Assembly (NCBI GenBank): GCA_016124195.1
Contig: WGOE01000002.1
Location: 372,001 to 436,000, forward strand
Source of the DNA: a bacterium
GTDB lineage: Bacteria; Pseudomonadota; Alphaproteobacteria; Rhodobacterales; Rhodobacteraceae
Direction of reading: 5' to 3'
Length of the DNA stretch: 64,000 nt
Under the pieces are notes generated by a model. That model was not told the origin of the DNA, ran no database searches, and saw only the letters and a program-made list of their open reading frames with translations. Every line of letters begins with the position of its first letter. Within the stretch, counting starts at the first letter, position 1. Below, one piece after another: positions 8,804-58,425 of this stretch. The position numbers and the translations under genes were made by a program.

Positions 8804-8804
8804 C

Positions 8805-27861: not shown

Positions 27862-27865
27862 TGGC

Positions 27866-28834: not shown

Positions 28835-28843
28835 GATCTGGCC

Positions 28844-30307: not shown

Positions 30308-30326
30308 TATACCCCCCAGGGGAATT

Positions 30327-31607
30327 TCACTTGCGAGCGGTTTCGACGGACTTGTTCAACTCGAACAAAGACTTGGCGAGTTTCTGGATTTCCTTGCGCA
30401 GCGGGTTCTTGGCCGCGCTTTCCGACAGGGGCAGGCCGTGGTCATTGGCTTGGGTGACCGGGGCGCCACCGTCCGGCAGCTGCACCTCGATGGCGATGTC
30501 CAGGCTTTCGGCCATGCGCTTGACGCGGGATTTGGCGCCAAGGTCGGTGAACTTGGGGGCCCGGTTCAGGATGTAGCGCAGCTTTTCATGCGGCAGACCC
30601 TCGGCTTTCAGCGCGCGGACAAAGCGCAGGACGTTCTGGGCCGAGCGGAGGTCCAGTTCCATCAGGGCAAAGTAGACATGGGCACGTTGCAGGACGGTTT
30701 CCGTCCAGGCCACGACCGTCTTGGGCATGTCGATCACGACGAAATCGAAATTGGCCCGCGCCATGTCGATGATGCGGCCGATGTCCTCGGGTCCGATGAT
30801 GTCAAGCGGCAGCATGTCGGCGGGCGCGGTCAGGACATGCAGCTTGTCGTTGAAGGTCAGCATGGATTGCAGCAGCGCGTCGCTGTCGGCCGATTGCGCA
30901 TCCGACAGCAGTTCAAACACCGATTCCTTGCGCGGCAGGTCCAGATAGGTCGCGGCCGATCCGAACTGAAAGTCAAAGTCTATCAGGCAGACGCGGGGCG
31001 GCTCCTTGCTGATCGTCGCCAGTTCCCAGGCGAGGTTGGTCGCAAAGGTCGAGGCGCCCGATCCGCCGCACAGGCCATGCACCGGCAAGACCACGGCATC
31101 GCGGTCGCCCTTGGCCTTGAAGCCGGGATGCGGCATCGTCTCGGCCGTGCCGGGCTCTTGCGGGGCGATCGGGACGGCGGCGGCGGGCTGCGCCGGGGCG
31201 GGTTTGCGGATCCGGTCGATGGTTTCGTGCAAGGCGCCTTCGGGCAGCGGATAGGGCAGGAAGTCATCCGCCCCGAGCCGCAGCAACTGGTGCAGCGCCA
31301 TCGGGCCGATCTGGTTGGCCACCAGCAAGACCTTGATATTGTGAGATTTCGCCTGCTTTATGATATCGGTAATCCGGCCGAGGTCGGATTCATCTTCGGC
31401 ATCAACCGCGATGGCCACGAATTCCAGTCCGCGCGCATCGGGCTGTTCCAGAAAGACCGCAGCGTCATCGAAAGACAGATCGCCCCAGCTTTCGCCGAGC
31501 TCCAGTTCCATGTCGTCGATCAGCAGTTCGAAATTCTGCACGTCGCGTGAAATGGTACACGCCAGGATCGGTGCTGGTTCCGGTTGAAGGTTTGCCACGC
31601 TCGTCAT
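30327..31607 (-). CDS. cpaE: Pilus polar-localisation protein CpaE/TadZ
   Basis: The 426-residue protein combines an N-terminal receiver-like domain (about 15-140) with a C-terminal ParA/MinD-like ATPase domain. The P-loop is a deviant one, HGLCGGSGASTFATN, without the usual Lys at the normal position, as known for TadZ/CpaE. It localises the Tad machinery. Start ATG 31607; a 288-base gap to the OmpA-like gene, including that gene's terminator, suggests that cpaE begins a separate transcript for the cytoplasmic/inner-membrane half of the machine. Confidence 0.92.
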   Translation of the reverse strand: MTSVANLQPEPAPILACTISRDVQNFELLIDDMELELGESWGDLSFDDAAVFLEQPDARGLEFVAIAVDAEDESDLGRITDIIKQAKSHNIKVLLVANQIGPMALHQLLRLGADDFLPYPLPEGALHETIDRIRKPAPAQPAAAVPIAPQEPGTAETMPHPGFKAKGDRDAVVLPVHGLCGGSGASTFATNLAWELATISKEPPRVCLIDFDFQFGSAATYLDLPRKESVFELLSDAQSADSDALLQSMLTFNDKLHVLTAPADMLPLDIIGPEDIGRIIDMARANFDFVVIDMPKTVVAWTETVLQRAHVYFALMELDLRSAQNVLRFVRALKAEGLPHEKLRYILNRAPKFTDLGAKSRVKRMAESLDIAIEVQLPDGGAPVTQANDHGLPLSESAAKNPLRKEIQKLAKSLFELNKSVETARK

Positions 31608-31842
31608 TGCCCAGTCCTACCAAATCGCCCCAAAATGCACGGCGGCCTTCCGATCTGGAAAGAACGCCCCACCCGGACCCGCCGCGACTCTTGTCGGTCG
31701 ACACACGTGTCCCGCTTGGCCAAGGTGCCCGCAGATATTGGCGACATTGGGGCTAAAAAATCGTCAATCTTTGGTATTTCGGGCTTTGAGTGGCGTTTGC
31801 GGAAACCAAGGCAGGATTGCGGGCCGGTCCTGGGCGCCCATG

Positions 31843-31872
31843 AATGCAAAGGGGCCCGACGATGCGGGCCCC
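31843..31872 (-). terminator. Rho-independent terminator after the OmpA-like gene
   Basis: On the minus strand GGGGCCCG and CGGGCCCC (plus coordinates 31851-31858 and 31865-31872) form an 8-bp stem with a 6-base loop followed by TTTGCATT. It lies 24 bases after the OmpA-like stop and separates that transcript from cpaE. Confidence 0.8.
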
Positions 31873-31895
31873 CGAACGCAACAGGCAGAGGCGGA

Positions 31896-32546
31896 TCAGC
31901 CGCCGCTACTGATCGCGGATTTCACATTCGTGTTGACCGGATGGACGCGGGTCGCGCTGTCGATGTATTCGCGCATGATGATGGCGGCGTATTTGCCATT
32001 CAGCAGGCCCGTATATCCCCGGGCAAAGCCGGAAACCCCGGTCACGGCGCGGCGATTGCGGACCTCGGGCGCCTGGGTGTCAACCACAGGGCGCGTCTCG
32101 CCATAGGAGACCAGCGCCTGCAGCCGCGACCCCGAAATCCCCTGGCCGATCAGATAGGCCACCACGGCCTTGGCACGGCGCAGGCCAAGGCCCTTGTTGT
32201 AGGCCTCGGTCCCGACGCGGTCGGTATAGCCGTAGACGCTGAACTTGACCTCGGGGAAGCGCTTGATCCAGGATGCTTGCCGCGACAGGGTCGCCATTGC
32301 ATCCGCGCTCAACTGCGACGAGTTGAATTCGAAGTTGACCGTGGTGTCGACGTCGCTGGCAAAGCGGTGGCCCAGCATCTGGGTCGCATCGCCCTCGTTC
32401 ATCATGGCGAGCTGGTTCATCATGGTGGGGTTGCCGAAGTTGCCTTCATCGACACTGCCACCGGCCTCGAGGGCGTCCTTGGTGTTGCAGGCCGCCAGAG
32501 GCAGCAAGGCAAGCGCGGCAATCATCAGCTTCATGCGCAGGGTCAT
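31896..32546 (-). CDS. OmpA-family lipoprotein in the Tad locus
   Basis: The 216-residue protein has a lipobox LAAC with Cys20, then a linker and a C-terminal OmpA peptidoglycan-binding domain (FEFNSSQLSADAM; VYGYTDRVGTEAYNKGLGLRRA). It starts four bases after the secretin stop, so both are co-transcribed. Caulobacter has CpaD at this position; here a peptidoglycan-binding lipoprotein takes the place, probably anchoring the secretin to the cell wall. Confidence 0.88.
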   Translation of the reverse strand: MTLRMKLMIAALALLPLAACNTKDALEAGGSVDEGNFGNPTMMNQLAMMNEGDATQMLGHRFASDVDTTVNFEFNSSQLSADAMATLSRQASWIKRFPEVKFSVYGYTDRVGTEAYNKGLGLRRAKAVVAYLIGQGISGSRLQALVSYGETRPVVDTQAPEVRNRRAVTGVSGFARGYTGLLNGKYAAIIMREYIDSATRVHPVNTNVKSAISSGG

Positions 32547-32550
32547 GCCA

Positions 32551-33948
32551 TCACTCCATCGAATAGCCGTAGGAGCCGCTGAAGTCCTGCCGGGCCACTT
32601 CGCCTGCAGGACCGCGCTGCTTTCCGGCGGTCTTGCCGAACAGGAACAGATCCGCTTCCGAGGGAAGCCGGATGCGGTCGGTGGGCAGGGTCAGCGCGTC
32701 GCCCCTGACCGGGTTGACCAGATGCGGCGTCACGATGATGACCAGTTCGGACTGCTTGCGCTGGTAATCGGCGCTGCGGAACAGGGCGCCCAGGATCGGC
32801 ACATCGCCGAGCCACGGGACCTGGCCGTTCAGGTCGGTGAAGTCGTCCTGCAGCAGGCCTGCGATGGCAAAACTTTCCCCGTCACGCATTTCGACCGTGG
32901 TCGAGGTCTCGCGCCGCTTGAAGGCGTTGACCGAAATGCCGTTGGTGGTGATCGAGGTCGAAGTGTCGATCGACGAGACGGCTGCGTTGATCACGAGGTT
33001 GATCGTGTTGCCATCGACCACGGTCGGGGTGAAGTTCAACTCCACACCGAAGGGTTTGTATTGGATGGTGATGGCGCCGTTCTGCCCGGTCACCGGGATC
33101 GGATATTCGCCGCCGGCCAGGAACTTGGCCTCCTGGCCCGACAGGGCGGTCAGGTTCGGTTCCGCCAGCGTCCGCACGACGCCCTTGGATTCCAGCGCCT
33201 CCAGCAGCACGCCGAATTCCAGCGATCCGGCGGTGAAGCCCAGCCCCAGCGCGCCCTGCGTGCCGGCGGCCGTCTGGTTGTTCGTGCCGTTGTTGAGGTT
33301 GTTCAGGATCGTGCCGGTGCCGCCGACTGTGCCCACGTTCTTGCCACCACGCACCCCAAGCGAGGCCGACAAGCTCTTGGACACCGAACGCTGCATTTCG
33401 GCAAAGCGGACCTTCAGCATCACCTGCTGCGTGCCCGAAACCATCATGAGGTTCGACACCTTGTCGGGCGCATAGCGCGAGGCGAGGTCGAGCGCCCGGT
33501 CGAGCTTGGCGGTCGAAGACACCGTGCCCGACAGGACGATCCCGTCATTGGCGGTGCGCACTTCGATCCGCTCGCCCGGCAGGATCTGTTGCAGGCGTTC
33601 CTTGAACTCTTCGATGTCGGGCGTGACATGAACCTCGACGTTCGAGATCAGCTTGCCGTCTTGGGTCAAGAGGGTCATCGTCGTGCGTCCGGGCGTCTTG
33701 CCCAGCACATAGATCGTCTTGTCCGACAGCGTCGAAATATCGGCGATGCCCGGGTTCGCAACCGAAAGCTCTGCGAATGCCGTATCGCTTTCCACGACGA
33801 CGGCGCGATTCATCGGCACATTCAGGGGGCCATTGGCCGAACCCTTCATGATGGATAGATTTTGCGCCATCGTCGGTGCAGGACACAAGATCGTGCCGGC
33901 CAGAGCCAGCCCCATCATGCCTGCCATCAATAGGCCCCGCAGCTTCAT
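32551..33948 (-). CDS. cpaC: Tad pilus outer-membrane secretin CpaC/RcpA
   Basis: The 465-residue protein has a signal peptide (about 1-29, ending TMAQ), an N-terminal pilus-secretin domain of the RcpA type (TDKTIYVLGKTPGRTTMTL), a BON-like segment, and the conserved secretin C-domain (residues about 220-430, with VPWLGDVPILGALFRS). It forms the outer-membrane pore for the Flp pilus. A 201-base gap with a terminator separates it from cpaB, so it may have its own promoter. Confidence 0.93.
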   Translation of the reverse strand: MKLRGLLMAGMMGLALAGTILCPAPTMAQNLSIMKGSANGPLNVPMNRAVVVESDTAFAELSVANPGIADISTLSDKTIYVLGKTPGRTTMTLLTQDGKLISNVEVHVTPDIEEFKERLQQILPGERIEVRTANDGIVLSGTVSSTAKLDRALDLASRYAPDKVSNLMMVSGTQQVMLKVRFAEMQRSVSKSLSASLGVRGGKNVGTVGGTGTILNNLNNGTNNQTAAGTQGALGLGFTAGSLEFGVLLEALESKGVVRTLAEPNLTALSGQEAKFLAGGEYPIPVTGQNGAITIQYKPFGVELNFTPTVVDGNTINLVINAAVSSIDTSTSITTNGISVNAFKRRETSTTVEMRDGESFAIAGLLQDDFTDLNGQVPWLGDVPILGALFRSADYQRKQSELVIIVTPHLVNPVRGDALTLPTDRIRLPSEADLFLFGKTAGKQRGPAGEVARQDFSGSYGYSME

Positions 33949-43228: not shown

Positions 43229-43412
43229 CCGGCGGCAATTTGCCTTCTTCGTGGGCGGATCGGCCAGAAGGTGCCATGATCGCAGCTTCTCGCTTGCCAT
43301 GACGCGGCTCTGCGCTCTGGGATGCGCCCGGTCGGTATCGCCGGGGTCGGGTGCGGCCTGCACCGGCCAGGCGCCACGCTCCGATCCGAAACGTCACGAA
43401 TGGAGCCTGCCC

Positions 43413-45200
43413 ATGCTGCCTGCCGTCCTGTCCTTGCCCGCCCTGCAAACCGCCTATGCCAAGGGGGCCTCGCCCGTCGATGTGGTCGAAGAGGTCATCG
43501 CGCGGATCAAGGCGTCGGACGATGCCGCGATCTTCATCTCGGTCGCCGAGTTCGATGATCTGCGGGCGCAGGCGCGGGCGCTGGTCGCGCGCAAAGCGGA
43601 GGCGCTGCCGCTGTACGGCGTGCCCTGCGCGGTCAAGGACAATATCGACGTGGCCGGTCTGGCGACGACCGCGGCCTGCCCGGCCTATGCCTATCGGCCA
43701 GAAGCCGATGCCGCGGTCGTGGCGCGCCTGCGCGCGGCCGGGGCCCTGGTGGTGGGCAAGACAAACCTGGACCAGTTCGCCACCGGGCTGAACGGCACGC
43801 GCTCGCCCTATGGCGCGCCGCGGTCGGTGTTCGATGCCGATTACGTCTCGGGCGGGTCCTCGTCGGGGTCGGCGGTTGCTGTGGCTTCGGGGCTGGTGGC
43901 CTTTGCACTGGGTACAGATACGGCAGGCTCGGGGCGGGTGCCTGCGGCCTTCAACAACCTTGTCGGCATCAAGCCCACGCCGGGGCTGGTTCCGAACACC
44001 GGCGTGGTGCCGGCCTGCCGCAGTGTCGATGTGGTGACGGTCTTTGCGGGCTCGGTTGCCGACGGCGTGGCGGTGCGCCGGGTGATCGAGGGGGTGGACG
44101 CCGGCGACCCCTTCTCGCGCCCGGCCATCCCGGTCGGCCTGCCGCCCAAGCCGCGGATCGGCGTGCTGACCGGGGCCGAGCGCGAGTTTTACGGCAATGC
44201 CGAGGTCGCGGCCCTTTACGATGCCGCCATCGCCCGGGCCGAGGCGCTGGGTGCGACAATCCTGCCCTTCGACTACGTGCCCTTCCGCGAAGTGGCGGCA
44301 CTTCTCTACGAGGGCCCCTGGGTCGCAGAGCGCCTGGCCGCGGTCGAGGATTTCCTCGCCGCCCATCCCGAGGCATTCGATCCGACCGTGCGCCGGATCA
44401 TCGAGGGCGCGCGGGACAAGACCGCTGTCGAGGCCTTTCGCGGCCGCTACCGGCTCGAGGCGCTGCGCAAGGCGGTGGCGCCGGTCTGGCAGGCGGTCGA
44501 CATGCTTCTGCTGCCGACCGCGCCCACGACCTATACCGTGGCCGAAATGCTGGCCGATCCCGTGACGAAGAACAGCCATTTCGGCCGCTATACCAATTTT
44601 GCCAACCTGCTGGGCTATGCCGCGATTGCGGTGCCGGCGGGGTTTGGCGCGTCAGGTCTGCCGGCCGGGGTAACGCTGGTCGGGCCGGGCTTCAGCGACG
44701 ACGCTTTGGCGCCCTTTGCCGGCGCCCTGCATCAGGCAGCCGCCTGCGGCATGGGCAAGGACCGCAACGCCGCCATCCCGCCCGCGCCAGAGGTGCCGCT
44801 GCCGGAGGGCTGGCTGCCGATCTGCGTGGTGGGCGCCCATCTGACGGGCATGCCGCTGAACCCCGAACTGACCGGACCGGGCGGCGTCCTTCTGGGCGAG
44901 GCGAGGACCGCACCGGGCTACCGGCTTTACGCGCTGGCCGGAACCGTGCCGCCCAAGCCGGGCATGGCGTTGGACCCTCACTTCCGCGGACCCGGCATCG
45001 CGGTCGAGGTCTGGGCCCTGCCGCCCGCCGCCTTTGGCGCCTTCGTCGCGCGCATTCCGGCGCCGCTTGGCATCGGCAAGATCACGCTGGATGATGGCCG
45101 GCAGGTGCCGGGTTTTCTCTGCGAGGCGCATGGCCTGACCGGGGCAACCGAGATCACAAGCCATGGCGGCTGGCACGCCTACCGTGCGGCCCAGGCCTAG
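43413..45200 (+). CDS. atzF: Allophanate hydrolase
   Basis: Start ATG 43413 has GGAG seven bases upstream; 595 residues, the usual length. The amidase-signature core (1-430) has Lys75 in CAVKDN, cis-Ser149 in the SGGSSSGS block, and nucleophile Ser173 in GTDTAGS, 24 residues apart. The C-terminal domain (about 460-595) is the AtzF-type domain, with the GVLLGEARTAPGYRLY segment. It hydrolyses allophanate to ammonia and carbonate/CO2. It is convergent with the LysR gene, overlapping its stop by four bases, and is not preceded by urea carboxylase here. Confidence 0.93.
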   Translation: MLPAVLSLPALQTAYAKGASPVDVVEEVIARIKASDDAAIFISVAEFDDLRAQARALVARKAEALPLYGVPCAVKDNIDVAGLATTAACPAYAYRPEADAAVVARLRAAGALVVGKTNLDQFATGLNGTRSPYGAPRSVFDADYVSGGSSSGSAVAVASGLVAFALGTDTAGSGRVPAAFNNLVGIKPTPGLVPNTGVVPACRSVDVVTVFAGSVADGVAVRRVIEGVDAGDPFSRPAIPVGLPPKPRIGVLTGAEREFYGNAEVAALYDAAIARAEALGATILPFDYVPFREVAALLYEGPWVAERLAAVEDFLAAHPEAFDPTVRRIIEGARDKTAVEAFRGRYRLEALRKAVAPVWQAVDMLLLPTAPTTYTVAEMLADPVTKNSHFGRYTNFANLLGYAAIAVPAGFGASGLPAGVTLVGPGFSDDALAPFAGALHQAAACGMGKDRNAAIPPAPEVPLPEGWLPICVVGAHLTGMPLNPELTGPGGVLLGEARTAPGYRLYALAGTVPPKPGMALDPHFRGPGIAVEVWALPPAAFGAFVARIPAPLGIGKITLDDGRQVPGFLCEAHGLTGATEITSHGGWHAYRAAQA

Positions 45201-46099
45201 GCGAAGCGCGCATCCAGCGCCCTTCCAAGCTGGGCTGCGAACTTGGCCGCCGCCACCGGCAGGGTGCGCCCGCGCAACTGGCACAGGTAAAGCCGCCCCT
45301 CTGGCACATCGCGTGTATCGACCGGGCGCGAGACAACGCCCTCCGCCCCGGTTTCAGGCAGGCCGATCGGGATCTGAAAGCTGATCAGATGCTCCTGAAC
45401 CGGATAGCGGCGGAGGAATTCGAAATGATCGGAATCGAGCACCACCCGGAGATGGACCGAGGATTTGACCAGCGCGAGGTCGATCAGATGCCGGACGCCG
45501 TATTGCGCGGTGGGAAGGCCGATCGGATAGGCCGCACAGTCGCGCAGCCGCACCGCCGCGCGCCCGGCCAGGGGATGATCCTCGGCCATCACCGCATGGA
45601 TCACCTGCCGGGCCGAACCGAGGATCTGCACCTCGGACAGGCGCACGGGTTCAAAGATCAAGGCAAGGTCGGCGTCATGGCTGACCAGCGCCGCCTCGGC
45701 CGCCTCGCGGTCGCGCACCCTCACGCCAAAGGTCACGCCCGGATGCTCGCGCCTATAGCCGCCGATCTGGTCGGGCAGGAAAAACGGCAGGAAGGCCTGG
45801 CTGCAGGCGATGGCGACATGGCCGCGCCTTTCGCCGGCGAGATCGGCGATCTGGCTTTTCAGCTTCTCCAGTTCCGCGGCTTGCGTGCGCAGATGGTGGA
45901 TCAGCAACTCCCCCGCCGTCGACAGCCGCACCCCGCGCGGCAGCCGTTCAAAGATCGGTACGCCCAGTTCCTCTTCCAGCGCCAGCACGCGGCGGTTGAG
46001 CGCGGTCGAGGTCAGCGCCAGCCCCTCGGCCGCCTTGCGGATCGACCCGGCGCGGGCCACGGCGTCGATGAACTGCAAGGGCGTCAGAAGGCGCATCAT
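45197..46099 (-). CDS. LysR family transcriptional regulator
   Basis: A 300-residue LTTR with N-terminal winged helix (LLTPLQFIDAVARAGSIRKAAEGL; about 1-65) and C-terminal effector-binding domain. It is divergent from the BMP-type ABC operon and tail-to-tail with the allophanate hydrolase gene, so it is the likely local regulator of both. Two candidate LysR sites lie 12 and 34 bases upstream of its start. Confidence 0.92.
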   Translation of the reverse strand: MMRLLTPLQFIDAVARAGSIRKAAEGLALTSTALNRRVLALEEELGVPIFERLPRGVRLSTAGELLIHHLRTQAAELEKLKSQIADLAGERRGHVAIACSQAFLPFFLPDQIGGYRREHPGVTFGVRVRDREAAEAALVSHDADLALIFEPVRLSEVQILGSARQVIHAVMAEDHPLAGRAAVRLRDCAAYPIGLPTAQYGVRHLIDLALVKSSVHLRVVLDSDHFEFLRRYPVQEHLISFQIPIGLPETGAEGVVSRPVDTRDVPEGRLYLCQLRGRTLPVAAAKFAAQLGRALDARFA

Positions 46100-46110
46100 C
46101 GCTCCCTACT

Positions 46111-46148
46111 GCTGCAAAATATGCAGCGCATCGCTGCGAAGATAGCAG
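46111..46148. promoter_or_regulatory. Tandem LysR operator sites in the lysR-BMP intergenic region
   Basis: Two CTGC-N7-GCAG motifs: CTGCAAAATATGCAG at 46112-46126 (within the perfect inverted repeat GCTGCA-N5-TGCAGC, 46111-46127) and CTGCGAAGATAGCAG at 46134-46148. Both satisfy the T-N11-A rule of LysR boxes (TGC-N7-GCA) and are spaced 22 bp, two helical turns, on the same face of the DNA. Confidence 0.65.
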
Positions 46149-46233
46149 ACGACAGCAGCACTGCAATCCGCAACAGTTTTATTCAACGAGTCGTCGCGGC
46201 AGCGCGGCCCCCACCCCAGACCTGGAGATCCCG

Positions 46234-47358
46234 ATGCGCCTTTCCCCCAAGACCCTGTCGCGGCGCCACTTCCTGAACGGGGCGGCGGCCCTGTCGGGCG
46301 TGGCGCTGACCTCTAGCCTGCCCATGATGGCGCGGGCCGCGGCCCCCCTGACTGTTGGCTTCATCTATGTCGGCGCCAAGGACGACTTCGGCTACAACCA
46401 GTCCCACGCCGAAGGCGCCGCCGCCGTCAAGGCGATGGAGGGCGTGACCGTCGTCGAAGAGGAGAACGTCCCCGAAACCATCGACGTGCAAAAGACGATG
46501 GAGTCGATGATCAACCTCGATGGCGCGGCGCTGCTCTTTCCGACCTCGTTCGGTTATTTCGACCCGCATGTGCTGGCCGTCGCGCCGAAATACCCCGATG
46601 TTCGCTTCGAACATGCCGCAGGCCTCTGGCATGAAGGGCTGCCCACCAATGTCGGCAGCTACTTCGGCTATATCGGCATGGGCCAGTATCTGAACGGCAT
46701 CGTGGCCGGACACATGACCAAGTCGAAGAAGATCGGCTTCGTCGCGGCCAAGCCGATCCCGCAGGTTCTGTTGAACATCAACTCGTTCCTTCTGGGGGCG
46801 CGGGCGGTGGACCCGACCATCACGTGCCAGGTGATCTTCACCGGCGAATGGTCCCTGGCGGTCAAGGAGGCAGAGGCGACCAATGCCCTTTGCGATGCGG
46901 GCTGCGATGTGATCACCTGCCACGTCGATGGCCCCAAGGTCACGATCCAGACCGCCGCCGGCCGCGGCGCCTATGTCTGCGGCTATCACGCCAACCAGTC
47001 GGCGCTCGCCCCCGACAAATACCTCACCGGGGCCGAATGGAACTGGGCCGGCGTCTATACCGGCATGGTCAAGAAGGTTCTGGCTGGCGAGACCCTGCCC
47101 AACTTCATGCGCGGCGGGCTGACCGATGGCTATATCAAGATGTCGCCGCTTGGCCCCGCCGTCACCCCCGAGGCCAAGGCGCAGTTCGACGCGACCATGG
47201 CCGAAATCATGAAGGGCGGCTACGCCGTCATCAAGGGCCCGCTCAAGGACAACAAGGGCAATGTGATCCTCAAGGACGGCGAAAAGCAGGTCGAGACGGA
47301 TATCAAGTTGGAAAGCATGGATTACCTCGTCGAGGGCGTCCTTGGCGCGACATCCTAG
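46234..47358 (+). CDS. BMP-family ABC transporter substrate-binding protein, Tat-exported
   Basis: A 374-residue BMP/Med-type binding protein. The N-terminus has a twin-arginine signal (SRRHFLNG, Arg10-Arg11, hydrophobic core, cleavage near ARA at 34-36). The mature protein has the BMP pattern with GFIYVGAKDDFGYNQSHAEG. BMP proteins usually bind nucleosides or similar. Here the neighbours (biuret and allophanate hydrolases) suggest a urea-oligomer ligand, which is an inference. First gene of the LysR-controlled operon. Confidence 0.9.
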   Translation: MRLSPKTLSRRHFLNGAAALSGVALTSSLPMMARAAAPLTVGFIYVGAKDDFGYNQSHAEGAAAVKAMEGVTVVEEENVPETIDVQKTMESMINLDGAALLFPTSFGYFDPHVLAVAPKYPDVRFEHAAGLWHEGLPTNVGSYFGYIGMGQYLNGIVAGHMTKSKKIGFVAAKPIPQVLLNINSFLLGARAVDPTITCQVIFTGEWSLAVKEAEATNALCDAGCDVITCHVDGPKVTIQTAAGRGAYVCGYHANQSALAPDKYLTGAEWNWAGVYTGMVKKVLAGETLPNFMRGGLTDGYIKMSPLGPAVTPEAKAQFDATMAEIMKGGYAVIKGPLKDNKGNVILKDGEKQVETDIKLESMDYLVEGVLGATS

Positions 47359-47367
47359 GGGGCGGTC

Positions 47368-48459
47368 ATGGCAGATCAGACGATGATCGGCAGTACGGGG
47401 GCCACCTGGCTGCCCGCGCTGGCCCGCAGGTCCGAGGCTGTGGTGATCCCCCTTGCGGCGCTGGTTCTGGGGTTGGGCCTCTTCGGGCTGTTCCTGCTGA
47501 CCCAGGGCAAGTCGCCGGTCGATTTCATGGCGATCGTCTGGAAGGGCGCCTATGGTTCGGCCTTTTCCTTGCAGAACACCCTGTCGCGGGCGGCGCCCCT
47601 GCTGCTGGCGGCGCTCTGCGTGGCCCTGCCGGCGCGGTTGGGCCTCGTGGTGATCGGGGGCGAGGGCGCCATCGTGCTGGGCGGTGTGGCGACGGGCGCG
47701 CTTGGTCCGCATCTGGCTGCGGTGCCGCCCATCGTTGCACTTCCCCTGCTGGGGCTGATTGCAATGGCGGTGGGCGGCCTCTGGATCGGGGCGGCCGGCG
47801 CCTTGCGGTTCTACCGCGGCGTGAACGAGACGATCTCCTCGCTCTTGCTCGCCTATATCGCCATCGCCCTGATGAACCATCTGGTCGAAGGCCCGTTCCG
47901 CGACCCTGCCAGCCTCAACAAACCCTCGACCCTGCCGCTGGTCGACGCGCTGCGCGTGGGCAACCTGCCGGGGATGGAGGTGCATTGGGGCCTGGCCTTC
48001 GGCCTTCTGGCCTGCGTGGCAAGCTGGGTGCTGATCGACAAGACGACCTGGGGCTTTGCCGCGCGCATCGTCGGCGGCAATGTCCGCGCGGCACAGGTGC
48101 AGGGGCTGCCAGTCGGGCGGCTGATCCTGGGGTTCACCGCGCTGGCCGGAGGCTTCGCCGGGCTGGCCGGATTTTTCGAGGTGACGGCGGTCTTCGGGTC
48201 GGCCAATGCCTCGCTGGCTTCGGGCTATGGCTATACCGGCATCCTGATCGCCTTTCTGGCCCGGCATAACCCTTTGGCGATCATCCCGGTGGCGCTGCTG
48301 CTGGCAGGGTTCGATGCGGCCTCCGGGCTGATCCAGCGCCGGATGGACCTGCCCGATGCCACGATCCTGGTGCTGCAGGGCTTTGTCTTCCTCGTGATCC
48401 TGATTTCCGACACGGCTTACGGCCGCCTCAAGCTCTTTCACCCCGAAAGGTGGGCGTGA
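47368..48459 (+). CDS. ABC transporter permease, BMP/nucleoside type (YufP family)
   Basis: 363 residues with about eight to ten hydrophobic segments and the branched-chain/ribose-like permease core (RVVVIGGEGAIVLGG pattern: LGLVVIGGEGAIVLGGV). It follows the binding protein after nine bases and overlaps the second permease by one base (TGATG). With that partner it forms the membrane channel of the importer. Confidence 0.9.
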   Translation: MADQTMIGSTGATWLPALARRSEAVVIPLAALVLGLGLFGLFLLTQGKSPVDFMAIVWKGAYGSAFSLQNTLSRAAPLLLAALCVALPARLGLVVIGGEGAIVLGGVATGALGPHLAAVPPIVALPLLGLIAMAVGGLWIGAAGALRFYRGVNETISSLLLAYIAIALMNHLVEGPFRDPASLNKPSTLPLVDALRVGNLPGMEVHWGLAFGLLACVASWVLIDKTTWGFAARIVGGNVRAAQVQGLPVGRLILGFTALAGGFAGLAGFFEVTAVFGSANASLASGYGYTGILIAFLARHNPLAIIPVALLLAGFDAASGLIQRRMDLPDATILVLQGFVFLVILISDTAYGRLKLFHPERWA

Positions 48460-49382
48460 TGGAGCATGACATCGGCCTCTGGGGCATCCCGATCGCCATT
48501 CTGGGCGGCGCCATCCGGGTTTCGACCCCTTTCCTGTTCGTAAGCCTCGGCGAGGTTTTGACCGAACGCGCCGGCCGCATCAATCTGGGGCTCGAGGGGA
48601 CTTTGGTCTTTGGCGCCATGTCGGGCTATGCCACCGCCGTCCTGACCGGATCGGCCTGGGCCGGGGTCGCGGTGGCGGCGCTGGCGGGGGCGGTGTTCGG
48701 GCTGGTCCACGGCATCCTCTGTTCGCTGCCCAAGGTGAACGACATCGCCATCGGCATCGCGATGATGCTGTTTGGCACCGGGATCGCCTTCTACTTCGGC
48801 AAGCCCTATATCCAGCCGGTCGCACCGCATCTGCCGGCGATCCCCCTGGGCTTCTGGTCAGACCTGCCGCAGCTGCAGGCGGCCCTGCAGGTCAATGTGC
48901 TGTTCGTGGCGGGATTGGGCCTCGCACTCGGCATGGCGTGGATGTTGCGCGCGACGCGGATCGGGCTGACCCTGCGCGTGGTAGGCGACAGCACCGATGC
49001 CGCCCGCGCCATGGGACTGCGGCCCAATGTCATCCGCACCCTGGCCACGGCGGCCGGCGGGGCCTTTGCCGGGATTGGTGGCGCCTTTCTGTCGCTGTAC
49101 TACCCGGGCAGCTGGAACGAGGGCCTGTCCTCGGGTCAGGGCCTGATGGCCGTGGCGCTGGTGATCTTTGCCCGCTGGAACCCCATCGCCTGCTTTGGTG
49201 CGGCCTTGCTGTTCGGCGGGGCAGGGGCGCTGGGCCCGGCCCTGCAATCGGTGGGCATCAGCAGCGGCTATTACCTCTTTTATGCGGCACCTTACGTGCT
49301 GACCCTGGGCGTGCTGATCGCCACATCCTCGCCCAACCGCGCCATGGCCGGGGCGCCGGGCGAATTGTCCATCACAAAATGA
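48459..49382 (+). CDS. ABC transporter permease, BMP/nucleoside type (YufQ family)
   Basis: 307 residues from ATG 48459, with AAAGG eight bases upstream; GTG codons at 48450 and 48456 are alternatives. The segment [12 protein letters not shown] is the diagnostic block of the second permease in BMP-type importers. It ends seven bases before the biuret hydrolase gene, tying transporter and enzyme together. Confidence 0.9.
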
Positions 49383-49389
49383 GGCCCTG

Positions 49390-50067
49390 ATGACGACTGT
49401 CGCATCGACCCCCTATGCCTGGCCCTGGAACGGCGATCTGCGCCCGGACAACACGGCCCTGATCATCATCGACATGCAGACCGATTTCTGCGGAGCGGGC
49501 GGCTATGTGGACAAGATGGGCTATGACCTCAGCCTGACCCAGGCGCCGATTGGCCCGATCAAGGCCCTGCTGGCGGCGATGCGCGCCAAGGGCTATGCGA
49601 TCCTGCACACCCGCGAAGGCCACCGCCCCGACCTGTCGGACCTGCCGGCCAACAAGCGCTGGCGGTCGCGTCAGATCGGCGCGGGCATTGGCGATCCCGG
49701 CCCCTGCGGCAGGATCCTCGTGCGCGGAGAGCCGGGCTGGGACATCATCCCCGACCTCTACCCGCTGCCCGGCGAGGTGATCATCGACAAGCCCGGCAAA
49801 GGCTCGTTCTGCGCCACCGACCTTGAACTGATCCTGCACACCAGGGGCATCCGCAACCTGATCCTGACCGGCATCACCACAGATGTCTGCGTCTCGACCA
49901 CCATGCGCGAGGCCAATGACCGCGGTTTCGAATGCCTGATCGTCTCGGACTGCTGCGGGGCGACCGACCGCGGCAACCATGAAGCCGCGCTCAAGATGGT
50001 GACCATGCAGGGCGGCGTCTTTGGCGCGGTCACCGACAGCGCCAGCCTGATCGGAGCCCTGCCATGA
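49390..50067 (+). CDS. biuH: Biuret amidohydrolase (isochorismatase-like cysteine hydrolase)
   Basis: A 225-residue cysteine hydrolase closely resembling biuret hydrolase of Rhizobium leguminosarum. The triad is Asp28 (IIDMQTDF), Lys134 (IDKPGKGSF) and Cys167 (GITTDVCV), with Gln207 after it. From memory, the Rhizobium enzyme uses Asp36, Lys142, Cys175 and Gln215, a constant offset of eight, which supports the call. It converts biuret to allophanate and ammonia, the substrate of the hydrolase at 43413. The similar ureidoacrylate hydrolase RutB is less likely as no rut genes are near. Confidence 0.87.
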
Positions 50068-51593
50068 TCATCGGGGAAGACCCCGTCCTGCCCGGCGCGC
50101 TTGAGGTCGCCACCCTTGGAATGACCATGCGATTTGGCGGTTTTACCGCGCTGGACGACGTCTCGATCCGCGTGGCGCCCGGCAGCTTTCACGCTTTGCT
50201 GGGCGAGAATGGTGCCGGCAAATCCACGCTCGTCAAATGCATGATGGGGTTTTACCACGCGACCTCGGGCCAGATGACGGTGGGCGGCCGCGAGGCGAGG
50301 ATCGCCGATCCGCGCGATGCCCATGCGCTGGGGCTGGGCATGGTCTATCAGCATTTCACCCTTGTCCCTTCGCTGACGGCGGCCGAAAACCTGGTGATCA
50401 GCCGCAGGGACACGCCCGCCGTGATCGACTGGGCGCGCGAAAGCCGCGCCCTGCGGGACTTCATGGCCGCCATGCCGTTCCGGGTGCCCCTGGATCAACC
50501 CATCTCCCGCCTGGCGGCCGGGGAAAAGCAGAAGCTGGAAATCCTCAAGCAGCTTTACCTCGGCCGCCGCTTTCTGATCCTGGACGAGCCGACCTCGGTC
50601 CTGACCCCGGACGAGGCGGACGAGGTGCTGGGCCATGTCCGCGCCCTTTGTGCGGCGGGCGAGATTTCGGTCCTGATGATCACCCACAAGTTCCGCGAGG
50701 TCACAGCCTTTGCCGACGAGGTCTCGGTGCTGCGGCGCGGCCGTCTGGTCGGGCAGGGCCGCGTGGCCGACCTTGGTCATGCCGACATGGCCGCGATGAT
50801 GATCGGCACCTCGGCCGCCCGCACGCCCTTGCCGCGCCAGGGCGCGGCCGGGCCCGAGGTTCTGTCGGTGCGCGGTGTGAAGGCGCGCGACCGCTCTGGC
50901 CTGAAGGAAATCGCCATCGACGCCCTGACGGTCAAGGCCGGCGAGGTCGTGGGCATCGCGGGCATCTCGGGCAATGGCCAGATGGAGTTGATGGAGATCC
51001 TGACCGGCCAGCGCCCCGCGCAGGGAGAGATCCGCGTCGCGGGCCGGCCCTACCACGCGACCCGGACCGAGGCGCAGGCGCTGGCCGTGCGCTATCTGCC
51101 CGAAGAACCCCTGCGCAACGCCTGCGCCGGCAGGATGAGCGTGGCCGAAAACATCGCCTTCCGCAGCTTTGACCGAAACGGCGCCGCGTCACGCTTCTGG
51201 CTTGCGGGCGGGCAGATGCGGGCGCGGGCGGCGCAACTGGTCGACGCCTTCAAGGTCAAGACCGCCTCGCTCGATGCGCCGATCGCCGCGCTGTCGGGCG
51301 GCAATGTGCAGCGCGCGGTTCTGGCGCGGGAACTGACGGGCGAGGTGCGGCTTCTGGTGATCTCGAACCCGTGCTTTGGGCTCGATTTCTCGGCCGTGGC
51401 GGAAATTCGCGCCCGGATCATGGCGGCGCGCAACGCGGGCACGGCGGTCTTGCTGATGAGCGAGGATCTGGACGAGGTGATGGAACTGTCAGACCGCATC
51501 CTGGTGATGTCCGAAGGGCGGATCGCCTTTGAAACCCCGGCCGCGACCGCCGATCTTGCCACCATCGGCCATCACATGGGCGGGCACGCCTGA
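50064..51593 (+). CDS. ABC transporter ATP-binding protein, two ATPase domains (BMP importer)
   Basis: 509 residues with two ABC domains as in nucleoside/ribose importers. The first has Walker A GENGAGKS at 47-54 and Walker [11 protein letters not shown]. The second half has a degenerate P-loop ([14 protein letters not shown]) and signature LSGGNVQR, the usual pattern in this family. It overlaps the biuret hydrolase by four bases and the second cysteine hydrolase by one base, so importer and enzymes are interleaved in one transcript. Confidence 0.93.
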
Positions 51594-52261
51594 TGGCCCG
51601 GATCGCGGATGCCTTGCCCTTCGCCTTTGACTTCGATCCCGCCCGGACGGCGCTGATCGTCATCGACATGCAGCGCGACTTCATGGAGCCGGGCGGCTTT
51701 GGCGCAAGCCTTGGCAATAATGTGAGCCTGTTGCGCGCCATCATCCCGGCCACGGCGGCGCTGATCGCCGGTTGCCGGGCTGCGGGCGTGCCCATCATCC
51801 ACACCCGCGAATGTCATCTGCCTGACCTGTCCGACTGCCCGCCGGCCAAGCGTCTGCGCGGCGCGCCCGCCCTGCGCATCGGAGATGCCGGGCCGATGGG
51901 CCGCATCCTCATTGCGGGCGAGCCGGGGGCCGAGATCATTCCCGAAGTCTTTCCCCTGCCGGGTGAGACGGTGATCGACAAGCCGGGCAAGGGCGCCTTT
52001 CATGCCACCGGCCTGTCCAGTCTGCTGGCGGGCCTTGGCGTCGAAACCCTGCTTTTCGCCGGCGTCACCACCGAGGTCTGCGTGCAGACCACCATGCGCG
52101 AGGCCAATGACCGCGGCTTTGACTGCCTTCTGGTCGAGGATGCCACCGAAAGCTATTTTCCTGCCTTCAAGGCTGCGACGCTGCAGATGATCCGCGCACA
52201 GGGGGCCATCGTCGGCTGGACCGCCCCCGCCGCCGCGGTCGTGGAGGCGCTTGGTGTCTGA
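51593..52261 (+). CDS. Second isochorismatase-like cysteine hydrolase, possible triuret or related urea-oligomer hydrolase
   Basis: 222 residues, a paralogue of the biuret hydrolase at 49390. It keeps Asp25 (VIDMQRDF), Lys130 (IDKPGKGAF), Cys163 (GVTTEVCV) and Gln203, and the MREANDRGF stretch, but differs around the substrate loop: [14 protein letters not shown] for [14 protein letters not shown]. Triuret hydrolase (TrtA) belongs to this family and makes carboxybiuret, which decays to biuret, so a pathway role before BiuH is plausible. Its exact substrate is not shown by the sequence; other amides or a second biuret hydrolase are possible. Confidence 0.78.
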
Positions 52262-52595
52262 ACCCTTCTCCCTTGCCGCGTTCCTTCCCGATGCCTGGCG
52301 CAAGGCGGCCTATGAACCCTTCCGGGACGGCGTCGAAATCAGCCCGATCGTGACCGGCGAACCTGCCGTGGCGCTGTTGCGCTATGCCCCCGGCGCGGGC
52401 GTGCCCCGGCACCGACACCGCGGGCTCGAGACGATCCTCGTCCTGGAAGGCACCCAAAGCGACGAGCGCGGCACCTATGGCCCGGGCGCACTCGTCTTCA
52501 ACCCGGAAGGCAGCGTGCACAGCGTCTGGTCCGACACCGGCTGCGTCGTGCTGATCCAATGGGCCCGCAGCGTCGAGTTCGTCACGGCGGGCTAG
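52254..52595 (+). CDS. Cupin-domain protein
   Basis: 113 residues if GTG 52254 is the start (GGAGG six bases upstream; TTG 52251 is the alternative). It is a small ChrR/RmlC-type cupin with metal-site candidates PRHRHRGLE and later HSVWSD. It overlaps the end of the second cysteine hydrolase and closes the operon. Function is unknown; such cupins can be metal-binding hydrolases/dioxygenases or sensors. Confidence 0.82.
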
Positions 52596-54645: not shown

Positions 54646-55143
54646 ATGTCCCTCTCCATCAGCCTGACCGTAAACGGCGCTGTCCGTGACGTGACGCTGA
54701 ATGACGCCCGGGTCACCCTGCTGGACCTTCTGCGCGAGCGTCTTGCGCTGCCCGGCACCAAGAAAGGCTGCGATCGCGGCCAATGCGGCGCTTGCACGGT
54801 CTTGATCGACGGGCGGCGCATCAATGCCTGCCTGACGCTGGCCGCCACGCTGGATGGCGCCGAGGTCACCACCATCGAGGGTCTGGCCTGCGGCGACATG
54901 CTGCACCCGGTTCAGGCCGCCTTCATCGACCATGACGGCTTTCAATGCGGCTATTGTACCCCCGGCCAGATCATGAGCGCCGTGGGCCTGATTGCCGAAG
55001 GCCGGGCCGGCACCGACCCCGAACGCATCCGCGAGGGGATGAGCGGCAATCTTTGCCGCTGTTCGGCCTATCATGGCATCACCGAGGCCGTGCTGGACGC
55101 CACCACCCGCATCGCGGCCGAAAAGGCGAGGAAATCCGCATGA
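54646..55143 (+). CDS. Molybdenum hydroxylase, 2Fe-2S subunit (PaoA-like)
   Basis: 165 residues from ATG 54646, GGAGG four bases upstream. It holds two 2Fe-2S clusters: the ferredoxin-type set Cys42, Cys47, Cys50, Cys62 and the helical set Cys101, Cys104, Cys137, Cys139. No Tat signal, unlike E. coli PaoA, so the enzyme should be cytoplasmic. It passes electrons between the Mo site and the FAD subunit. Coupled by ATGA overlap to the FAD subunit gene. Confidence 0.93.
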   Translation: MSLSISLTVNGAVRDVTLNDARVTLLDLLRERLALPGTKKGCDRGQCGACTVLIDGRRINACLTLAATLDGAEVTTIEGLACGDMLHPVQAAFIDHDGFQCGYCTPGQIMSAVGLIAEGRAGTDPERIREGMSGNLCRCSAYHGITEAVLDATTRIAAEKARKSA

Positions 55144-56183
55144 ACCTGTTCGATTACACCCGCCCCGCCTCGGTCGAGGCGGCGATTGCCGCCTGGGTTC
55201 CCGGCGCGGCCTGGCTTGGCGGCGGCACCAACCTTGTGGACCTGATGAAAACCGGCGCGATGCAGCCGGGCAAGCTGATCGACGTGACCCGGCTGCCCGG
55301 CCTTGACCGGATCGAGACCCTCCCGGACGGCAGCACCCGGATCGGTGCCATGGTGCGCAATGCCGATCTCGCGCATGACGCGGGTTTTGCCCGGGCCTTT
55401 CCCATGGTGGCCGAGGCGCTTTTGTCGGGCGCCTCGGGCCAGTTGCGCAATGCGGCGACCGTGGGCGGCAACCTGATGCAGCGGACCCGCTGCGCCTATT
55501 TCGCCGACCCGCACAGCGCCTGCAACCGCCGCACGCCCGGCGCGGGCTGCGATGCAAGGGGCGGCGACACTGGCGGCATGGCGGTTCTGGGATGGAGCCC
55601 CGCCTGCATCGCCACCAACCCTTCGGACTTCTGCGTGGCGCTGGCCGCGCTGGAGGCGACAGTCGAAGTGCAGGGAACGGGCGGCAAGCGCGAGATTGCC
55701 TTTGCCGATTTCCACCGCCTGCCGGGCGATACGCCCGAGATCGAAACGGCGTTGCAGCCCGGGGAGTTGATCCTCGCCCTGCGCCTGCCGGCCGAGGCGG
55801 CGCAGTTTGCCGCCAACAGCCGCTATCTGAAACTGCGCGAGCGGACTTCTTATGCTTTCGCGCTGGTCTCTGCCGCGGCGGCACTGCGGCTGGACGGGGG
55901 CCGGATCGTCGCCGCCCGGCTGGCGTTGGGTGCCGTCGCCGCCAAGCCGTGGCGTGTCGCCTCCGCCGAAGCCCTGCTTGTGGGCCAGGCGCCGGAGCCC
56001 GCGCTGTTCGCCAGGGCCGCCGCCGAGGCCGTGGCGGGTGCCGCACCCTCGGGCGAGAATGCCCACAAGATCGAACTCGCCCGCCGCATCGCGGTGCGTG
56101 CCCTGACGGCGGCTGCGCAAGGCACGCCCGACCGCATGCCCGCGTTGCCGGCCTCTGTCTTCGGAGAACCCGCCCATGTCTGA
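55140..56183 (+). CDS. Molybdenum hydroxylase, FAD subunit with extra 4Fe-4S motif (PaoB-like)
   Basis: 347 residues from ATG 55140. An FAD-binding domain of the CoxM type (WLGGGTNLVDLMKTG, ATVGGNLMQRTR) is followed by Cys118, Cys128, Cys137 and Cys156 in the region RTRCAYF to PACIATNPSDF. PaoB of E. coli carries a 4Fe-4S cluster with this Cys arrangement, which ordinary xanthine dehydrogenases lack. Overlaps with both neighbours show a tight operon. Confidence 0.9.
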   Translation: MNLFDYTRPASVEAAIAAWVPGAAWLGGGTNLVDLMKTGAMQPGKLIDVTRLPGLDRIETLPDGSTRIGAMVRNADLAHDAGFARAFPMVAEALLSGASGQLRNAATVGGNLMQRTRCAYFADPHSACNRRTPGAGCDARGGDTGGMAVLGWSPACIATNPSDFCVALAALEATVEVQGTGGKREIAFADFHRLPGDTPEIETALQPGELILALRLPAEAAQFAANSRYLKLRERTSYAFALVSAAAALRLDGGRIVAARLALGAVAAKPWRVASAEALLVGQAPEPALFARAAAEAVAGAAPSGENAHKIELARRIAVRALTAAAQGTPDRMPALPASVFGEPAHV

Positions 56184-58425
56184 CACTTTGCCCTATGCCA
56201 CGCGCTTCGGGTCCAATTCGGGCCAATCGACCAGCCGCCGGGACGGTGTGGCCAAGGTCACCGGCGCGGCCACCTTTGCCGCCGACAACCACCCGCAGGG
56301 CCTGCTTTACGCCGTCTATGTCCCGGCCACGATCGCCCGCGGCAGGGTGACCCATCTGGATGTGGCCGCAGCCAAGGCGCATCCCGGCGTGGTCGAGGTG
56401 ATGACCCCGCAGAACCGCCCCGCGCTGGCCGGCGATCCCGATTCCAAGCCCTTCATGTTCGCCTTCCGCTTCGAGGCTCTGCAGGACGATACGGTGCGCT
56501 ACGCCAATCAGCCCATTGCCCTGGTGCTGGGCGAAACCATCGAGGCCGCCACCGAGGGCGCCCGCCTTCTGAACCCGCAGTATCAGGTCATGCCGCCCCG
56601 CGTCGGTCTGGACGCCGAGGCGCCCTACAAGGTCGTCGTCGGCAACTTCGGCCGCCCGGGCGAGACGGTGCATGGCGATGTCGCGGCCGGCCATGCCGCG
56701 GCGGTACAAAGCGTGGATGTGACCTATGAGACGCCGGCCCAGTATCACAACGCGATGGAGACTCACGCCGTTGTGGCCTCGTGGGACGGCGACCAACTCA
56801 CCCTGGACATGCCGCATCAAGCCATCGTGATGTCGCGCGGCGTCTTTGGCTATTACTTCGGCATCCCGGCCGAGAATGTGCTGCTGCGCAGCCCCTATCT
56901 GGGCGGCGGCTTCGGATCCAAGTCCATCGCCAACGGGCCGCAGGTGCTGGCCATCCTCGCCGCGCGCATGACGGGGCGGCCGGTCAAGCTGATGCTGCGG
57001 CGCGACCAGATGTTCGGCCCGGTCGGCCATCGTGGCGCCACCCGGCAACGCCTGCGCATCGGGATTGACGAGGCGGGCCACATGACGGTTCTGGAGCACG
57101 AGGCGCTGGCCGCCACCTCGACCTTCGATGATTTCGTGGAAAATGCCGCCAATGCCTCGCAGGGGCTTTACGCGGCCGGCGCCCTGCGTTCGGCGCATGA
57201 GGGCGTACGCATCGACATCGGCACGCCCGGCCCGATGCGTGCGCCCGGCGAGGCCTCGGGGTCGGCCGCGCTGGAATGTGCCATGGACGAGATGGCCGAA
57301 CGCGCGGGGCTGGACCCCCTGGAGTTCCGCCTGCGCAACTATGCCGAAACCGAACCCGGCACCGGGAAGCCCTATTCGTCCAAGGCCCTGCGCGCGTGCT
57401 ATGCGCAGGGGGCAGAGCGGTTCGGTTGGGCCGGCCGCCCGCTGAAGCCGCGCCAGATGCGGGATGAACAGGGCATGCTGGTGGGATGGGGCATGGGCAC
57501 CGCGCTGTTCCCGGCGCCGATGTTTGCAGCACAGGCCCGCGCCACGCTGAGGCCCGACGGCTCCGGTCTGGTCGAGACGGCCGCCGCCGACATGGGGCAG
57601 GGCGCCTGGACAGCGCTGGCCCAGATTGCCGCCGACGGTCTGGGTCTGCCGCTCGACAAGGTCGAATTCCGCTCGGGCAGTTCGGATCTGCCCGATGGCG
57701 GGATTGCCGGCGGATCGGGTCACACGGCGACGGCGGGCACGGCGCTCCATGCCGCCGGGGTCGATGCGGTGCGCCAGCTGACCGCGATGGCGGTGAGCGA
57801 TCCGGCCTCGCCCCTGTTCGGCGCCGGCAATGCCAGCATCGTCGCGCGTGACGGACGGTTGTTCGTCGCCGAGGACGCCAGCCGCAGCGACAGCTATGCC
57901 GACATTCTGGCCCGCGCGGGCGGTCAGGCGCTGGTCGGAACCGGCTCTGGCGGTCGGGCGCCAGAGGCGGCGGGACGTCACGCCATGTATTCGCACGGCG
58001 CGGTCTTTGCCGAGGTGAAGGTCGATCCCGACCTGTTCCAGATTCGGGTAACCCGTCTGGTCGGCGCCTTTGCGGCGGGGCGGATCATCAATCCCAAACT
58101 GGCCAACAGCCAGCTTTATGGCGGGATGATCTGGGGCATCTCTTTCGCCCTGCACGAAGAGGCGCGCTTTGATCCGCGCACCGGGCGGATCATGAATGCC
58201 GATTTCGCCGGCTATCACATCCCGGTCAATGCCGATGTGAAGGGGCTGGAGGTCATCACCGTGCACGAGGACGATCCTTTCGTGAACGCCCTGGGCATCA
58301 AGGGCGTGGGCGAGATCGGCATCACCGGCACCGTGGGCGCCATCGGCAACGCGATCTGGCATGCCACGGGCACCCGGATCCGGCGCTTTCCGATCCGGAT
58401 CGAGGATCTTCTGGCACACGCGTGA
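56176..58425 (+). CDS. Molybdenum hydroxylase, molybdopterin-binding subunit (PaoC-like)
   Basis: 749 residues, a typical size for this subunit of the xanthine oxidase family. It shows the N-terminal domain (RRDGVAKVTGAATFAAD), GGGFGSK loop, and the catalytic Glu713 in KGVGEIGITG. The PaoC branch oxidises aldehydes and probably carries Mo-MCD; aldehyde or N-heterocycle hydroxylation are both possible. No maturation chaperone of the XdhC/PaoD type follows, so that gene must lie elsewhere. Confidence 0.93.
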   Translation: MSDTLPYATRFGSNSGQSTSRRDGVAKVTGAATFAADNHPQGLLYAVYVPATIARGRVTHLDVAAAKAHPGVVEVMTPQNRPALAGDPDSKPFMFAFRFEALQDDTVRYANQPIALVLGETIEAATEGARLLNPQYQVMPPRVGLDAEAPYKVVVGNFGRPGETVHGDVAAGHAAAVQSVDVTYETPAQYHNAMETHAVVASWDGDQLTLDMPHQAIVMSRGVFGYYFGIPAENVLLRSPYLGGGFGSKSIANGPQVLAILAARMTGRPVKLMLRRDQMFGPVGHRGATRQRLRIGIDEAGHMTVLEHEALAATSTFDDFVENAANASQGLYAAGALRSAHEGVRIDIGTPGPMRAPGEASGSAALECAMDEMAERAGLDPLEFRLRNYAETEPGTGKPYSSKALRACYAQGAERFGWAGRPLKPRQMRDEQGMLVGWGMGTALFPAPMFAAQARATLRPDGSGLVETAAADMGQGAWTALAQIAADGLGLPLDKVEFRSGSSDLPDGGIAGGSGHTATAGTALHAAGVDAVRQLTAMAVSDPASPLFGAGNASIVARDGRLFVAEDASRSDSYADILARAGGQALVGTGSGGRAPEAAGRHAMYSHGAVFAEVKVDPDLFQIRVTRLVGAFAAGRIINPKLANSQLYGGMIWGISFALHEEARFDPRTGRIMNADFAGYHIPVNADVKGLEVITVHEDDPFVNALGIKGVGEIGITGTVGAIGNAIWHATGTRIRRFPIRIEDLLAHA

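Follow-up and report, generated by a model that had tools for sequence, protein, structure and literature searches.

The DNA analysed here (hereafter the window) is a stretch of 64,000 nucleotides from a member of the Rhodobacteraceae (assembly GCA_016124195.1, contig WGOE01000002.1, positions 372,001 to 436,000; the genome totals 4.26 Mb, and the stretch lies in its contig 5). Between positions 43,413 and 52,595 it contains a locus that probably imports biuret and triuret and degrades both to ammonia as a nitrogen source. According to sequence, its products are the allophanate hydrolase AtzF, the biuret hydrolase BiuH, the triuret hydrolase TrtA, the parts of an ATP-binding cassette (ABC) importer with a BMP-type binding protein, and a stand-alone cupin. 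In the proposed route, the binding protein, probably exported by the twin-arginine translocation (Tat) pathway, would import biuret and triuret together with two permeases and an ATPase, and TrtA would convert triuret to carboxybiuret and ammonia. Carboxybiuret would then yield biuret and CO2, a step proposed for the trtA-coupled cupin that can also occur spontaneously, BiuH would convert biuret to allophanate and ammonia, and AtzF would release ammonia and CO2 from allophanate. The three hydrolytic reactions (conversion of triuret to carboxybiuret, of biuret to allophanate, and of allophanate to ammonia) are established for the enzyme families (PMC7948467). The core pathway and the cassette arrangement are already known, and the newest part is the cupin as a candidate for an alternative carboxybiuret decarboxylase, while the predicted importer assignment is now better supported.

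The degradative enzymes are identified by several comparisons. Over 220 residues, the first hydrolase is 81% identical to BiuH of Rhizobium leguminosarum 3841, for which a crystal structure exists (6AZO), and it scores 422 bits with the NCBIfam BiuH equivalog NF050097, above the cut-off of 370. The second hydrolase remains below this cut-off (252 bits) and is closer to the crystallised Herbaspirillum TrtA (6XIX, 62% over 212 residues) than to 6AZO (49%). Residues separating BiuH from TrtA are named in PMC7948467, and at all 14 checked positions the first hydrolase carries the letters of Rhizobium BiuH and the second those of 6XIX (D25, F30, F36, N42, E73, K130, K133, A135, T159, E161, C163, Y188, Q203, and I206). 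Where the two families differ, the window BiuH has BiuH-type Y39, Y45, S139, D165, T192, and V210, and the catalytic D-K-C as well as K and Q are kept in the residue alignment. The original prediction reported that residue numbers differ from those of Rhizobium BiuH by a constant eight, and this is reproduced (D28, F33, Y45, K134, K137, D165, Q207, and V210 in the window vs D36, F41, Y53, K142, K145, D173, Q215, and V218 in PMC7948467). The TrtA consensus residues (F35, N41, E160, Y187, I205, and A134, plus D24, K129, C162, and Q202) are all kept in the second hydrolase. In the phylogeny that had been suggested as a check, the window BiuH falls inside the BiuH clade (97/100, branch length 1.84), and the second hydrolase lies outside it, together with the characterised 6XIX. 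This tree comprises 48 rows from a subset of loci, with three other hydrolases of the same genome as distant rows and the 6XIX fork drawn open; its TrtA rows were picked by a search with the window protein and are thus biased towards it. Identity, diagnostic residues, and tree together turn the earlier guess of triuret as the substrate into a firm assignment as TrtA, and the identity of the allophanate hydrolase said to finish the route is backed by TIGR02713 (760 vs 511 bits). Judged from these matches, the first hydrolase is BiuH, the second is TrtA, and the product of 43413..45200 is AtzF.

RutB and an enzyme with a new substrate were considered for the second hydrolase and rejected: its best match in the Protein Data Bank is 6XIX with 295 bits, compared with 92 for RutB (guanylurea hydrolases were outside the comparison). 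The matches that TrtA proteins give in NCBIfam include no TrtA model, so that TrtA resembles a sub-threshold BiuH. As a side observation, NF050097 and NF033625 point to a naming gap in public annotation, with TrtA having no model and the two tested AtzH-like proteins beside trtA being called HpxZ. TrtA paralogs outside biuret cassettes are found in loci L121 (5896-9972) and L124, with 63 and 66% identity to the best TrtA of the set, respectively. Judged by eye, several TrtA residues, F35 and N41 among them, are missing from the L121 paralog, and its neighbours resemble selB and selA, while the neighbours in L124 were judged by size only; both paralogs possibly act on another substrate.

Conservation of the cassette was assessed in 81 loci: one on the plasmid pRL10 of Rhizobium 3841, plus the 80 best among at least 583 relatives. 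Their genes were called with a purpose-made codon-usage gene caller, and some loci end at contig ends. According to best-hit scoring, these loci contain TrtA (81), the ATPase (76), BiuH (73), the permeases (72 and 71), BMP (65), the cupin (41), AtzF (34), and LysR (25). The core is present in pRL10 and in the majority of the 80 TrtA loci, so the cassette is more than a chance arrangement. The nearest named relatives at this locus among the matches listed belong to Gemmobacter and other Rhodobacteraceae, with TrtA being 84% identical to that of Gemmobacter aquatilis. In pRL10 the order is BMP, permease, permease, formamidase, BiuH, AtzD, ATPase, TrtA, and cupin, i.e., a formamidase gene and atzD are inserted in comparison with the locus described here. 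Locus L117, whose TrtA is 92% identical to crystallised TrtA over 212 residues, has the same order as this locus but an AtzH-like gene in the cupin slot. Regarding cyanuric acid as a possible source of the substrates, PF09663 gave no match in the genome analysed, with controls equally silent, which leaves absence unproven; the model does match a pRL10 protein. Second importers are seen beside the same enzymes in four loci (L019, L047, L075, and L085), where a system resembling SsuABC (named by eye) lies between biuH and the ATPase of the BMP system. In L118, a TrtA-like gene with neither BiuH nor cupin stands beside atzF, an AtzE-like amidase, and apparent peptide-type importer genes, and a second, divergent BMP-type importer adjoins it.

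In the original prediction a BMP-type importer for such ligands was regarded as new; novelty of the arrangement as a whole is not supported. Operons with TrtA, BiuH, and AtzF have been published for both Herbaspirillum and R. leguminosarum 3841 (PMC7948467). A 2025 study of nitrifiers (PMC12625717) reports a BMP importer co-located with biuH, trtA, trtB, and atzF and names it a nucleoside transporter, bmpA-nupABC. The locus resembles the published triuret pathway (Herbaspirillum sp. BH-1, R. leguminosarum 3841) in both hydrolases and AtzF, the diagnostic residues, and operon-level association, and it resembles the nitrifier biuH-trtA-trtB-atzF-bmpA-nupABC clusters in the enzymes and the BMP-type ABC importer. 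In the fetched 18.7 kb of pRL10 no allophanate hydrolase is annotated, although PMC7948467 places AtzF in the operons of both species. Within the nitrifiers, ammonia-oxidising bacteria are reported to have trtB, which comammox lack (PMC12625717), and the word cupin is absent from the main text of that paper. Literature searches returned no publication joining triuret with a cupin, or biuret with a cupin and an ABC transporter. The predicted biuret/triuret locus thus stands with regard to degradation, which is well supported by the enzyme identities, and to the cassette being real; as for novelty, it is mostly published, and the cupin, which had been given no role, holds most of what is new.

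As for the importer, its ligand is rather likely to be biuret and triuret. The N-terminus of the BMP protein carries SRRHFL, which we take to be a twin-arginine-like motif, and the protein belongs to PF02608 (PnrA-like). Its closest solved relative is AtzT (6PI5, E 1.9e-60, about 36% identity), which is also the best Foldseek match of its AlphaFold model (mean pLDDT 88). AtzT belongs to the AtzSTUVW importer of Pseudomonas sp. ADP and is encoded on the atrazine plasmid, in the s-triazine operon adjoining the cyanuric acid genes; its affinity for guanine is 110 nM, and in its solved structure guanine is stacked between Tyr45 and Trp194 and bound via Ser97, Phe98, Glu165, Asn218, and Asn220 (PMC6834077). 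Besides being the closest solved BMP protein, AtzT is similar in having a Tat signal. The Pfam family, a fold near AtzT and nucleoside binders, the guanine affinity of AtzT, and the preservation of the aromatic sandwich (Y45/W194), S97, and F98 in the window protein favour an ordinary transporter of nucleosides or purines that happens to lie beside the hydrolases, as in the published bmpA-nupABC annotation. The remainder of the pocket, however, differs from that of AtzT, which binds guanine and 2-hydroxyatrazine: E165 is replaced by Q177, N218 by H230, N220 by D232, and T139 by Q151, and the guanine-bonding Glu165 and Asn220 are not kept.

The pocket was compared between 62 cassette BMP proteins (the window protein and those longer than 330 residues from the 81 loci) and 34 alphaproteobacterial BMP proteins from outside this group (33 of 72 listed lower matches and one more protein of the genome analysed). 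In AtzT numbering, the cassette proteins have Gln165 and Asn169 in 62/62 and Gln139 in 61/62, whereas Arg139, Glu165, and Gly169 are found in 28 of the 34 others each. Both groups share His218 and Asp220, so the group-specific changes are those at 139, 165, and 169, and of the two lost guanine contacts only the Glu-to-Gln exchange is telling. Of six additional members, linked or partial, four match the pocket (L162–L165) and two BiuH-linked ones have H139 and S165 (L166 and L167), which counts against the importer assignment; Gln at 165 also occurs in two low-scoring BMP proteins (L132 and L133). According to a BMP profile search in 284 genomes, the cassette group is split off by a wide score gap, with 20 matches above 500 bits, one contig-end match at 457, and none listed between 320 and 457, and each of the 20 has a match of the TrtA profile in the BiuH score band no more than about 4 kb away. 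Set against this linkage and the Gln for Glu exchange at 165, a co-located nucleoside importer appears unlikely. Three operons (L163–L165) contain BMP, permeases, BiuH, and ATPase with the same BMP pocket and neither TrtA nor cupin, and their genomes have matches to the TrtA profile (315–334 bits) elsewhere, in two of them (G169 and G266) adjoining an AtzH match. Since BiuH-only operons keep the importer, its basic cargo would be biuret, with triuret added where TrtA is present. No publication on a bacterial biuret or triuret importer was found, as judged from search results only.

The cupin follows trtA closely. It can start inside trtA, which ends at 52261, with the GTG at 52254, and a homologue is found after trtA in 41 of the 81 loci with a spacing of −17 to +10 nt, the 8-nt overlap being present in 26 of the 41 (starts by the gene caller). 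A cupin profile run on 385 alphaproteobacterial genomes gave 13 matches above 110 bits, the next one having 85, and 12 of the 13 are directly after trtA (the exception is in genome G376). Residues of the H/H/E/H kind bind metal in cupins, and the putative ligands H54, H56, E60, and H90 (numbered from TTG 52251) are invariant in an alignment of 20 sequences, as are Y45, Q69, D71, N84, and C98, among others. The structural model (pLDDT 93.5) shows one cupin barrel, with ChrR domains as its closest matches, followed by other cupins that include dioxygenases. ChrR consists of an N-terminal sigma-binding domain plus a cupin; the window protein has the cupin domain alone in its 114 residues, with no second domain.

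The published carboxybiuret decarboxylase gene is trtB, which is reported to co-occur with trtA (PMC7948467), and TrtB is likely to be an AtzH-like (PF11533) protein. AtzH of Pseudomonas sp. ADP is a decarboxylating enzyme (PMC6219798) with an NTF2 fold, in contrast to the cupin of the window, and its homologue fills the slot after trtA in some loci, being directly after trtA in five of the 81 and in L117. Among the 81 loci, the cupin is present in 41 and an AtzH-like gene in 25 (within the fetched stretch), with both in none and neither in 15; PF11533 was confirmed in 4/4 AtzH-like proteins tested (three of the 25 and the one of L117). The source genome gives no AtzH match, and the protein after trtA matches Cupin_7 and not PF11533. 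At TrtA scores of at least 360 bits, 24 alphaproteobacterial genomes are retained, with AtzH in 1/12 having the cupin after trtA and 12/12 having no cupin (Fisher p 1e-5, or 4e-4 when collapsed to genera; tables entered by hand). A looser threshold gives 39 genomes, including paralogs outside the cassette, with AtzH in 1/12 and 25/27, respectively; both thresholds were set after seeing the scores. Compared with the background of 24/346 genomes outside these 39, enrichment of AtzH alongside TrtA is therefore confined to genomes lacking the cupin. A TrtA match at E 1e-85 is present in 51 of the 399 Burkholderiales genomes, and AtzH is found in 38 of the 51 and in 28 of the 30 with TrtA of at least 359 bits. 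The cupin search was negative for all 51, with no positive in that set, and the same model does match in the alphaproteobacterial search.

This replacement pattern, and only it, suggests that the cupin works like a decarboxylase, and the chance that its reaction is carboxybiuret decarboxylation is put at somewhat below even. Several observations weigh against such a role. Neither gene is found in 15/81 loci (11 shortened stretches and 4 full-length ones) or in 13/51 Burkholderiales TrtA genomes (2 of the 30 best), and genome G080 carries both cupin and AtzH. In the 12 alphaproteobacterial genomes, AtzH lies within about 11 kb of trtA in 4 and far from it in 8, and relatedness of the genomes inflates the Fisher tests. 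AtzH-like proteins also act elsewhere, and two tested beside trtA pass the NCBIfam HpxZ cut-off. Moreover, among solved proteins the cupin is most similar, by sequence as well as by fold, to ChrR anti-sigma domains, a regulatory family, and carboxybiuret decarboxylates spontaneously in vitro (PMC7948467), so that an enzyme may be dispensable. The last two points fit a ChrR-like regulator or sensor, or a metal-binding accessory protein, acting beside spontaneous decay of carboxybiuret. Such a protein is a serious though less probable candidate, given the single domain, the overlap with trtA, the missing cupin in the three BiuH-only operons, and mutual exclusion in the 81 loci with an AtzH-like protein that itself can directly follow trtA. 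Cupins acting on ureides exist, and the substrate of this one might be a different intermediate, such as allophanate or dicarboxyurea, or the protein might be a ureide hydrolase of another kind. AtzH has been proposed to act on 1,3-dicarboxyurea (PMC6219798), but the biuret route yields no dicarboxyurea, and the cupin is missing from the three BiuH-only operons, where allophanate should still form, which makes this option improbable.

Carboxybiuret decarboxylation by the cupin can be combined with the importer assignment in a joint proposal, which is tentative. The cupin would be an unrecognised metal-dependent N-carboxybiuret decarboxylase that is unrelated to AtzH/TrtB and replaces it across several alphaproteobacterial families, and the importer would be the first urea-oligomer-specific BMP transporter, in which Glu-to-Gln and Arg-to-Gln exchanges have re-tuned the purine pocket. 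Biuret and triuret occur as by-products in fertiliser (PMC7948467), and for nitrifiers without trtB the published study allows either an unidentified enzyme or spontaneous decay for the carboxybiuret step (PMC12625717). The cupin is a concrete candidate for this step where trtB is missing, and the altered BMP pocket offers a sequence signature that could tell importers of urea oligomers apart from nucleoside importers with the same annotation.

The genes of the locus are listed in the table; all genes named in the original prediction are present in the order given there, as confirmed by NCBIfam and Pfam matches. From the first permease onward, adjacent genes either overlap or are separated by 7 nt. 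The overlaps said to tie the importer to both hydrolases were recovered (4 nt for BiuH-ATPase and 1 nt for ATPase-TrtA), and they are followed by 8 nt for TrtA-cupin if the latter starts at its GTG. The permeases overlap by 10 nt with the GTG start of the open reading frame (ORF) list, or by 1 nt with the later ATG. For atzF, the ORF list starts at 43251, and the PRK08186 match begins at ORF residue 60, which fits the ATG at 43413. The importer operon is probably under control of the divergent LysR regulator; the gene at this position encodes LysR in several Rhodobacteraceae loci and GntR elsewhere. The statement that urea carboxylase is absent agrees with the scan of the 20 other ORFs of the window, none of which has such a domain; the rest of the genome was not searched.

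Table. Genes of the proposed biuret and triuret locus (coordinates within the window).
Product	Coordinates	Strand	Matches and remarks
AtzF allophanate hydrolase, amidase + AH_C	43413..45200	+	TIGR02713 760 bits (cut-off 511); Amidase, AH_C (PF21986)
LysR-family regulator, divergent from importer operon	45197..46099	-	HTH_1, LysR_substrate
BMP-type substrate-binding protein	46234..47358	+	PF02608; pocket Y54 S105 F106 Q151 Q177 N181 W206 H230 D232
ABC permease 1	47368..48459	+	BPD_transp_2
ABC permease 2	48450..49382	+	BPD_transp_2; ATG 48459 as possible later start
BiuH biuret hydrolase	49390..50067	+	NF050097 422 bits (cut-off 370); 81% to 6AZO
ABC ATPase, two matched ABC stretches	50064..51593	+	ABC_tran (Pfam)
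TrtA triuret hydrolase	51593..52261	+	62% to 6XIX; 14/14 checked residues TrtA-like
Stand-alone cupin, candidate carboxybiuret decarboxylase	52254..52595	+	Cupin_7 (Pfam); GTG start 52254

Elsewhere in the window, Flp/Tad-looking secretion or pilus genes (T2SSF, T2SSE ATPase, ParA-like ATPase, and secretin) occupy 26884-33948 on the minus strand. Downstream of the operon, at 54945-58425 on the plus strand, there are FAD- and molybdopterin-binding subunits of the xanthine-dehydrogenase/aldehyde-oxidase type (PaoC-like, 541 bits, below the cut-off). The region 1768-22006 contains possible nitrogen-compound genes, with parts of a peptide-type ABC importer and an amidohydrolase, as well as an amidase at 7493-9013, whose best match is the AtzE family, below the cut-off, and a creatininase-domain protein at 11958-13583, the domain of which is confined to the C-terminal part.

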